DNA of 64,000 nt from Cliona cf. orientalis (lineage: Eukaryota; Porifera; Demospongiae; Clionaida; Clionaidae). Of the stretch, positions 2,684 to 16,418 are shown one piece after another. The notes beneath the pieces are model-generated. The model did not search any database. It was not told where the DNA came from and saw only the letters and a program-made list of their open reading frames with translations. Both the position numbers and the translations under genes were made by a program. The stretch is taken from the NCBI GenBank assembly GCA_963930775.1, contig OZ005699.1, forward strand, positions 1,509,501 through 1,573,500, in the 5' to 3' direction. How positions within the stretch are numbered: the stretch's first letter is position 1; the number at the start of each line of letters is the position of its first letter.

Positions 2684-5600
2684 AATCATAGTTGGTGCTC
2701 CTTCTGGTACATTCCCTGGTGGTTTGAGCTTGAACGATCCAGGCATGCCAAGAGCAGAACGATCAGGTCTCGTCTACGCCTGCCCTGTCCAACCTGGCAC
2801 ATGTTATGGTGTACGCGGGGACACCACTCGCTACCTGGGTGCTCGTGATGCTGTCGATAATAACCCATGCGTGGATGATCTGACTCTGACAGACTTTCCC
2901 CAGTCGTACATCGAGGGTCGATTATTTGATCAAGCTCGTAAGCCTTTTTATATTTGTTTGGTTATAGCAACAGCAATATTCTTTTGGCATCGATTTAATT
3001 TATTTGGGGGGGGGGGGGGGGTAGTGGAGCATAAGGGAAGCGCCCCCACCCCCCTCCACCCGAGGTTGATTTCTTCTTCCTCGAACTTCTAAACTTAATT
3101 GTATGTCGAGAATAGTAGTTATGTACTGGAATATGTCTGATTCCCCCCCCCCCCCCCCCCCACCACCTCCTAAAAACCAGTGATTGATAGTCCCCTGCCC
3201 AAGCATACATAATCTAGGCATGTCAATTCTCCATTGTATGGCACGCTAAGAGAGTCCAAAAATAATACTAGAGTAGCCATTGGCTCAGCCTAAACCACAC
3301 CCTCTTTAGTGCTCTGCTCTGCTTGTGGAGAAGTCTTAATTAGACTGGTTTGATAATCATTTTTTTTGTGTACGTACGTACATGTATGTGTACAATACAG
3401 CCAGTGCATTCCTCTTCGACTTTGGCGAGGGGACATGTATACTTACTGAAAATAAGACGGATCAACTTCTTGGTGCCACTCTCTTCAGCAATGGTGAAAC
3501 ATTCATGGTGAGTGATCCCATTCTATATCTTTCTAAATCCTCTCTCTTTTTTTTTGTTCCCTTAGGCTTGTGCTCCAAGGTGGACGGACACCAGGCGCGC
3601 TGCTTTTACCTTACTTCCCAGGGGAGTGTGCTATACATCTGGCAGAAATTTGCAGGGCTTTCAAAGACTACAACCATGTGGTAATGTTGTTATCCTGAGT
3701 AAGACTTGGGATGGGGGGTGTCCCTCCAGGGATTTCACATACCGTGTTTATTCTAATAGCTTATAAAATAATTATTATTTTAATTTTCGCATAATTTCTG
3801 GTTTAAGATTGTCACATGCTCCAGTATGTGCATTATGAAAGTCCTAGAATGCGAATTTTCTTGCGCTAATTAAATCTTGCATTTTATAAACACTTAATAT
3901 TACAATAACGTACATTGTATACATGTATATCAGTTGGCAGTACTGCGCCAGCTGAAAATACCCGGGAGGATGGATACTGTCTGGCTGGAACATCTGCACT
4001 GGCCTACGTAAGTCAATCTCAATTACCATAGTTCTAAATAACTATTACTAACAGTAGGTTTAACGGGTAATTTTGGCAAGATTTTTGATTTGGTGATTCG
4101 GTATACATGTATAGATCACCAATTAAAAACATATCGCCAAAATTTAAACTTTGCCAATACCCATGGAGAGCCGATTAATGCTCGCCAAAGTTTCCCCGCT
4201 ATAGTCATTTGGTGTGTGTGCTTAACAACCATTACCAACAATAAAATAATAATAATATTATAATATTTCCCCTTACCCCTCTTCTTTTCTCCTCTCCTTT
4301 TCAGAATGGTGGGTTTGTGCTTGGTGCCCCTGGCAATCAAGAGGGTCGGGGATTGCTCTTTTACTCTACCAGCCCTGACATTACGAACTTCATGAGTGGG
4401 CAGTTTCGTCTACCGAATGCAGATGGAATGCCTGATCTCTCAATCACGGATCAGTATCAAGGTCAGGGGTTGTTTCGTTTATTTGTGAGCGGACTTGAAT
4501 AAATAAAGAGGGGGATTTGACTTTATCATGCAAAATGTGATTTTTGGATCACTTTTCAACTTGCCACTATTTCAAGCCAGGGCCAGGGATTCATGAACAT
4601 TGTATGATGTATCAATGTAGGATTTTCTACCATTGCTGCGTTCATCACTCAAGTGAGAAGTTCAGGTCCAGCTCCTAGTAAGTAGTCATAATGAGCTTCT
4701 ATGGTAGAATCTCTCATAGAATTATGTAAGACCCTCCCAATCCCTCCTTCCTCTCTCTTTACAATAAATTAAATATAGACACCTACATGTTACATTGTAT
4801 AGCTACATTAATGGTATTGTCCTTCACTGGCTGAATGGAGATGCAATTTAGATTTTTTGGGGGGTGGTGGGGGGACTGAAGTGAGTGAAATCATAGATAG
4901 TAGAAAGGGTAAAGTACTTTACCCTTTCTACTATCTATGGTGAAATTGAGCAAAATTAGTAATTCTTGATAGTTCAGGTGGTATATGCACCTTCTCTTAT
5001 TAATTTTCCATCTGTACATGTGTATTTGTAGATATTGTAGCTGCTGTACCTCGCTATGATGATGATACTTATTCCGGGCGGATCACCGTCTACAACCCAC
5101 CCAACTACCAGACCATTCAAAATGTTGAAGCCACTGGCACTCAGGTACCATGCAGTAGCTAGTCTTAAGGCTGGTTCACAATTTGACACTACGTAATGTG
5201 TCACCACTGTGTCGACGCTTGTGGAAGTGCAACACGATGCTAGGATAGACTCGGATCCTATGCTTGCGGTCCTTTGCATTGCATTTTTGCATTAGATCAT
5301 AAAAAAAATCGATAAAGTATTTGTGTTTGTGACATTAACGCAATGCAAGACCTTGCATCTTATTGTGAACTGGCCTTGAAAGCTCGCCCTGCACCCATGG
5401 GAGTTTTCCCTTTGGTGGCCTTGCTCCATTGTACTGTAAATGCCTATAACTGTCACATACTAGCCAAATTTAGCCACTTGCTACTGTATCCTTCAGTGGC
5501 GTAGCCAGGGGTGGGCCTAGTAGGGCCAGGCCCGACCAACTTTGTTCTAGTAATGCTTACTACTTAACCATTGATCGTATCAACCCTTCAATTCTATGAG

Positions 5601-16418: not shown

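Follow-up and report, generated by a model that had tools for sequence, protein, structure and literature searches.

A predicted single-chain integrin alpha-beta head within a small tandem family of integrin fusions in a sponge

Textbooks present integrins as heterodimers, regulated by the movement of their two chains away from each other at the legs and tails. Heads that lack legs and membrane anchor are familiar as engineered soluble headpieces, which are man-made and consist of two chains joined by clasps. No natural alpha-beta integrin fusion was found described in the open-licence literature searched. An oyster survey set aside one alpha and nine beta candidates that lacked a transmembrane (TM) segment (PMC7390872). 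Here we describe a locus of the sponge Cliona cf. orientalis at which a single reading frame is predicted to encode an alpha head followed by a beta head.

The window, the whole stretch of 64,000 nucleotides that was analysed, corresponds to C11:1509501-1573500 of a 217-Mb assembly in 149 contigs. The original prediction placed 29 exons in one frame between positions 2684 and 16418, and we rebuilt this chain by placing AG and GT boundaries at its exons. The chain was borne out with boundaries corrected by a few bases (one exon end moved from 14117 to 14111, a better donor), and under 16 alternative splice-site combinations no stop interrupts it between 2684 and the TAG at 16416-16418, giving 1023-1029 letters including the stop. 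Position 2684 does mark an exon but not the start of the gene, as a signal-peptide exon lies further left and outside the window. This exon 1, located through homology with a paralogue, lies between 626 and 385 bases to the left of window base 0, joins 2684 in frame and starts MHKNSISLLLYVVHIAASCVLLLTFGARA, which is signal-peptide-like by hydropathy. The full model has 30 exons, GT-AG ends in 29 of 29 introns and a product of 1107 amino acids. The gene model confirms an alpha head and a beta head in one frame, with one left exon added, and we regard the fused structure as very probably real. Its features are listed below (window positions unless marked C11).

C11:1508874-1509115, outside the window: exon 1, predicted signal peptide and start of the propeller
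2684-7855, plus strand: exons 2-14 of 30 with the introns between them, seven-bladed alpha propeller (FG-GAP; alignment to integrin alpha-4)
9294-10512, plus strand: exons 15-18, the thigh region of alpha, identified from its position and its homology to the canonical alpha4 copy, with no Pfam match
10513-11785, plus strand: junction intron between alpha and beta
11246-11758, no strand assigned: MITE-like element in the junction intron, with 31-nt inverted ends
11786-11993, plus strand: exons 19-20, last part of the second PSI exon and start of the hybrid domain
12232-15751, plus strand: exons 21-27, end of the first hybrid part and the beta-I domain
Within the exon at 12232-12363: MIDAS motif DLSTS
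15861-16418, plus strand: exons 28-30, second hybrid part, ending ...CVCDCVNLVSQSYIYRP, TAG at 16416-16418

The fused gene had been presented as a lone fusion; the fused frame stood, but the tandem cluster holds two more alpha-beta fusions, both of which have kept legs. The two further same-order pairs, par2 and r3, came from a tblastn search of the fused product over C11:1400001-1583000 and four other loci. The par2 model has 52 exons with GT-AG in 51 of 51 introns and encodes both ectodomains in one frame of 2018 amino acids, running from a signal peptide through propeller, thigh, calf, PSI, hybrid, beta-I and EGF to beta-tail regions. At a threshold of 0.01, Pfam reports FG-GAP, Integrin_A_Ig_3, Integrin_beta and I-EGF_1 together with weaker relatives; no beta TM was found in par2. 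The possibility that par2 comprises two separate full genes was rejected, as neither an alpha TM nor a beta signal peptide was found between the halves. After the beta tail come a stretch rich in Thr and Pro and segments resembling FN3 and Ig domains (C11:1470769-1471743; named by eye, with neither FN3 nor Ig reported by Pfam at 0.01), followed by a retrotransposon-like open frame. The par2 C-terminus is provisional because its last codons resemble an unused donor. In r3, 39 exons with GT-AG in 38 of 38 introns encode 1516 amino acids that hold FG-GAP and Integrin_beta in one protein, whose C-terminus is hydrophobic and carries no tail (GAGSNGKGASSGLSAGAIVGIMVVVTAFEILMTY, C11:1503097-1503230), perhaps a tail-less TM or a GPI signal. 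Run unmasked, the gene finder merged neighbouring genes and called repeat-derived exons, misled by extended CT and poly-C/poly-G tracts within introns (among them window 7110-7297 and 13835-13867); repeats were masked and it was rerun. The final models leave out predicted exons without homology (6 + 2 in par2, 9 + 15 in r3), and several exon ends were adjusted by hand.

Canonical relatives of both halves lie on the same contig. The alpha half of the fused gene has exons and splice phases in common with alpha4 in 17 of 17 compared; alpha4 is a canonical alpha on the minus strand (C11 ~1322.8k to 1301.4k) that ends LLHFILWPCIGGVLLLIAAAILLYF-VGFFRRKKK. A second canonical alpha, alpha5, also on the minus strand, has a TM followed by CGFFRRKK and is identical to r3 at 1228 of 1282 aligned bases across 13 exons compared. 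Closest to the fused beta half is mB, a beta gene with a TM and an NPLY tail (C11 ~1434.7k to 1422.4k, minus), which can be aligned to stretches of the fused gene from window position 11769 to 16417. The second PSI exon of mB holds an insert of ~2.5 kb (C11:1433804-1431237, minus) that may have damaged it, so that mB may not be fully intact. Across window positions 11786-13000 the introns of the fused gene and mB are nearly identical, with the loci ~90 kb apart and on opposite strands; introns 18-20 carry 2, 0 and 0 private differences in the fused gene and none in mB. The near-identity of these introns suggests recent gene conversion between the two genes. Because join points and alpha relatives differ among the three fusions, fusion probably occurred at least twice.

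Other integrin genes lie near the fusions. The neighbour of the fused gene, in tail-to-tail orientation, is a canonical beta gene on the minus strand (wB, window ~18000-26100). It has beta-I exons, a PSI exon near 25778 and, near 18092-18239, a tail that includes DRREYNAW and GRNPLY. Three canonical alpha genes, recognised by their tails, lie in tandem on the plus strand at window positions 53193 and 61261 and at C11:1577706. Stray copies of a wB-like beta tail exon (NPLYTSCRKDYKN) are found on the minus strand at C11:1507345, immediately left of the fused gene, and at C11:1472587, immediately right of par2, and are perhaps marks of repeated unequal exchange.

The fused gene carries what identifies an integrin alpha subunit, an N-terminal FG-GAP propeller with calcium loops, as well as what identifies a beta subunit, an Integrin_beta (beta-I) domain with a MIDAS. 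As anticipated, a Pfam search of the spliced product returned FG-GAP (5.8e-20) and Integrin_beta (1.7e-66) within one protein. In profile searches of the sponge's own genome, PF08441 gave 0 matches, an uninformative result, and FG-GAP matched at one place only, because exons split the repeats. Metal-binding residues, claimed to be conserved, are mostly kept: the propeller retains three calcium loops and the MIDAS motif DLSTS is intact, with the pair after the MIDAS serines being EE in the fused gene, mB and par2 and DD in beta-2. The best matches among solved structures are integrin alpha-4 for the alpha half (3v4p, 1e-41) and integrin beta-2 for the beta half (4neh, 4e-53).

Much else is missing. 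Calf domains, a TM and a GFFxR tail, present in alpha4 and alpha5, are not found at the fused locus, and neither are the PSI core, EGF legs, TM and NPxY tail present in mB. The alpha-leg, PSI and beta-leg sequences of par2 gave 0 tblastn matches at the fused locus; four matches within its span belong to the neighbouring beta gene on the opposite strand. What had been called a PSI remnant is only the last part of par2's second PSI exon; the PSI cysteine core was not found at the locus. The last exon runs through a donor-like AACCTT|GTGAGT (16388/16389) to a stop nine codons on; in par2 and mB this donor leads to leg exons, and it appears to be ancestral. Instead of the separate alpha and beta chains of an integrin receptor, the gene model predicts one frame. 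The 19-residue mean hydropathy of the 1107-residue protein peaks at 2.30 at residue 6, with a second maximum of 1.86 at residue 542, the propeller-thigh boundary, and no further membrane-like segment was found by this measure. With a signal-peptide-like start, no anchor and no leg exons, the gene agrees with the predicted single, legless and probably secreted integrin head, and hydropathy suggests that the product would be secreted.

Exons for the alpha calf, TM and tail and for the beta signal peptide and PSI core, all present in relatives, are absent from the junction intron at 10513-11785. No TM-like segment was found in the three intervals between the halves (1273, 1159 and 451 bases in the fused gene, par2 and r3), and a scan for signal peptides gave one weak stretch in the fused gene, a stretch in r3 that is out of frame with its PSI, and nothing in par2. 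The same scan recovered signal-peptide-like starts ahead of PSI in each of mB, mC and wB; that of mB (MAYKMLRTYILVLLLILDIVSS) is convincing, and those of mC and wB are less clear because longer intervals yield several candidates. The MITE-like element in the junction intron matches at least 39 other genomic places over 200 bases or more at 75-86% identity, a lower bound with 40 of 821 candidates scored.

The three joins were made at different points. In the fused gene, the last alpha exon uses a phase-0 donor in common with alpha4, and the acceptor falls inside the equivalent of par2's second PSI exon. In par2, the homologue of the canonical alpha4 TM exon keeps its first part and continues into a serine-rich stretch with a phase-1 donor, and the next exon is a PSI exon in phase 1. 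In r3, the exon that starts the calf continues as novel sequence up to a phase-1 donor, which is separated from PSI by 451 bases. The junction splice sites are ordinary to weak, with donor and acceptor ranking 28th and 16th of 29 in the fused gene, 10th and 42nd of 51 in par2, and 33rd and 2nd of 38 in r3. The phase match at the three joins is not independent evidence because the gene finder favours in-frame joins; as it was first trained on the fused gene's own exons, its alpha-to-beta joining is partly circular. AATAAA/ATTAAA-type sites occur within the junction intron (10556 and 10702), and none was found in the 1.4 kb past the stop; the sites in the intron make an alpha-only transcript from this locus possible.

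The absence of stops had been taken as a sign of selection rather than decay. The open frame proved weak evidence, with ~1 to 3 stops expected, and taken alone it was rejected as proof: simulated neutral change gave 1.3 stops for the beta half (45 changes) and 2.7 for both halves under an assumed 113 changes. dN/dS was likewise rejected as proof on its own (alpha 0.80; beta 0.48, 0.56 and 0.72 for three pairs). The stronger evidence for selection came from indels that keep the frame. Compared with par2, introns of similar length differ by 41 indels over 1966 aligned bases, of which 15 are multiples of 3, whereas coding exons differ by 7 over 3264 bases, and all 7 are multiples of 3. In three-way alignments, the indels private to the fused gene number 15 in 2704 intron columns (3 multiples of 3 and 12 frame-shifting; very unequal-length introns are left out of both comparisons and low-complexity places of this one) and 5 in 2918 coding columns, all 5 multiples of 3. 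Coding exons of the fused gene show 0 frameshifts against 13.4 expected without constraint, and the reading frame appears to be protected.

Substitutions tell the two halves apart. Polarised with par2, the beta half shows 19 synonymous and 26 nonsynonymous changes on the fused-gene branch (P 0.028 against 72% nonsynonymous expected) and 6 and 17 on the mB branch, pointing to constraint on the beta half of the fused gene on its own branch. Comparison of the fused gene, par2 and alpha4 gave 17 synonymous and 50 nonsynonymous private alpha changes for the fused gene (P 0.73), 18 and 34 for par2, and 17 and 35 for alpha4. By this measure the alpha half is indistinguishable from neutral, and above all the thigh (8 synonymous, 32 nonsynonymous; propeller 9 and 18) appears free or fast-changing. 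Such freedom fits a thigh that need not meet legs and also fits early decay. Synonymous sites may be an unclean neutral yardstick because divergence is higher in introns than at coding sites (0.136 per site for alpha introns where they can be aligned, with those of very unequal length left out, against an alpha dS of 0.084 and dN of 0.067). Pooled over both halves, the fused gene has 36 synonymous and 76 nonsynonymous private changes (68% against 72% expected), a difference judged informally to be not significant. Part of the constraint may predate the fused form because all copies are young duplicates.

These data bear on the possibility that a tandem alpha-beta pair was reduced by deletions to an open but useless fused frame in which decay is still pending. 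Such a young relic would accord with the low divergence (alpha dS as above), the few stops expected under neutral change, the neutral-looking alpha half and its thigh, the loss of the PSI core and all legs, and the stretch past the stop in which no polyadenylation-type site was found. Stops, frameshifts and broken splice sites, the marks of a pseudogene, were not found in the fused gene, though early decay would be compatible with its neutral-like alpha changes. Since the frame has survived where ~13 frameshifts were expected, every intron keeps GT-AG, the beta half appears constrained on the fused-gene branch and two sister fusions are likewise intact, we consider a relic unlikely. Still less probable, in our judgement, is that the locus makes two transcripts, one from an alpha-head gene whose end lies in the junction intron and one from a beta-head gene that begins there, the in-frame join being fortuitous. 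Read-through of exon 18 does meet a stop at ~10558 with ATTAAA sites after it, and the junction donor is weak; however, the interval holds no convincing beta signal peptide, the loss of the PSI core leaves the beta part without a start of its own, and par2 and r3 are arranged alike, r3 across an interval of merely 451 bases.

The single chain could also be real and act in trans, its halves pairing with a canonical partner or, by domain swap, with a second copy, so that the product would be a dominant-negative or a cross-linker instead of a cis head. Canonical alpha and beta relatives are at hand in the same cluster and contig, but on integrin geometry cis pairing would be favoured by joining the halves at the knee, and we doubt that trans action is the main role. 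An assembly or haplotype artefact could be suspected where near-identical tandem copies are hard to assemble; against this, there are three loci with three distinct join points on a 9.46-Mb contig, with no N in the 183-kb cluster, and we give this account almost no weight.

The overall best explanation, to which we assign a probability of roughly 0.6, is a tandem single-chain integrin whose head pairs in cis as a soluble ligand binder. The fused locus would be the shortest of three tandem genes encoding integrin alpha and beta as one polypeptide. The sequence shows canonical alpha copies (alpha4-like in the fused gene and par2, alpha5-like in r3) placed head-to-tail ahead of beta copies (mB-like in the fused gene and par2). 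With the alpha 3′ end (TM, tail and stop) and the beta 5′ signal-peptide exon not found, alpha-to-beta splicing would keep one frame; in the fused gene, alpha legs, PSI core and beta legs are missing as well. The thigh ends and the hybrid/PSI region starts at the integrin knee, which makes a direct thigh-to-hybrid link plausible. Through this link, propeller and beta-I of the secreted product may pair in cis as an obligate 1:1 head that would bind ligand through the kept MIDAS. Because it lacks legs, anchor and tails, the product would not signal and would serve as a soluble ligand binder, a decoy or a bridge. We think it probable that the product is secreted, folded and functional; decoy or bridge as its job is a guess that we offer tentatively.

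Much of the original interpretation is supported and part of it needed changing; the find extends beyond a single gene to a small tandem family with canonical relatives. The family would have three outlets: a secreted head (the fused gene), a long ectodomain pair with additions (par2) and a form with a tail-less anchor (r3). On the sequence evidence, we lean slightly towards the view that natural single-chain integrins exist, having arisen by at least two fusions with three join points into a three-outlet family in which pairing is covalently fixed and tail signalling dropped. If this is true, a covalent, tail-less alpha-beta head would represent an integrin no longer subject to inside-out signalling, and structural studies would gain a ready-made head encoded by a single gene. 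A two-gene receptor would have become a one-gene secreted binder inside a cluster that still keeps its canonical relatives, and alpha-beta pairing, normally combinatorial, would be fixed by covalent linkage.

Compared with canonical alpha/beta heterodimers (3v4p, alpha-4/beta-7; 3fcs, alphaIIb/beta-3; 4neh, alpha-X/beta-2), the fused gene shares a propeller with three DxDxD-type calcium loops, a thigh, a hybrid domain and a beta-I domain with MIDAS, but those integrins are made of two polypeptides, whereas the fused gene would make one, without legs, TM or tails. The nearest sequence relatives of its halves, alpha4, alpha5 and the beta gene mB of the same genome, are, unlike the fused gene, separate genes with a TM and GFFRR or NPLY tails. 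Sib-type integrin-beta-like proteins (Pfam vWA_SIBA-E) match the beta-I part weakly (2.3e-08), far less well than Integrin_beta does (E-value given above). The oyster candidates resemble the fused gene in having integrin domains without a membrane anchor, but they are single subunits, with alpha-beta fusion unmentioned in the available part of that survey (PMC7390872), whereas the fused gene joins both. Engineered soluble integrin headpieces are legless and anchorless, as the fused product would be, but they comprise two chains where the sponge gene is predicted to encode one.
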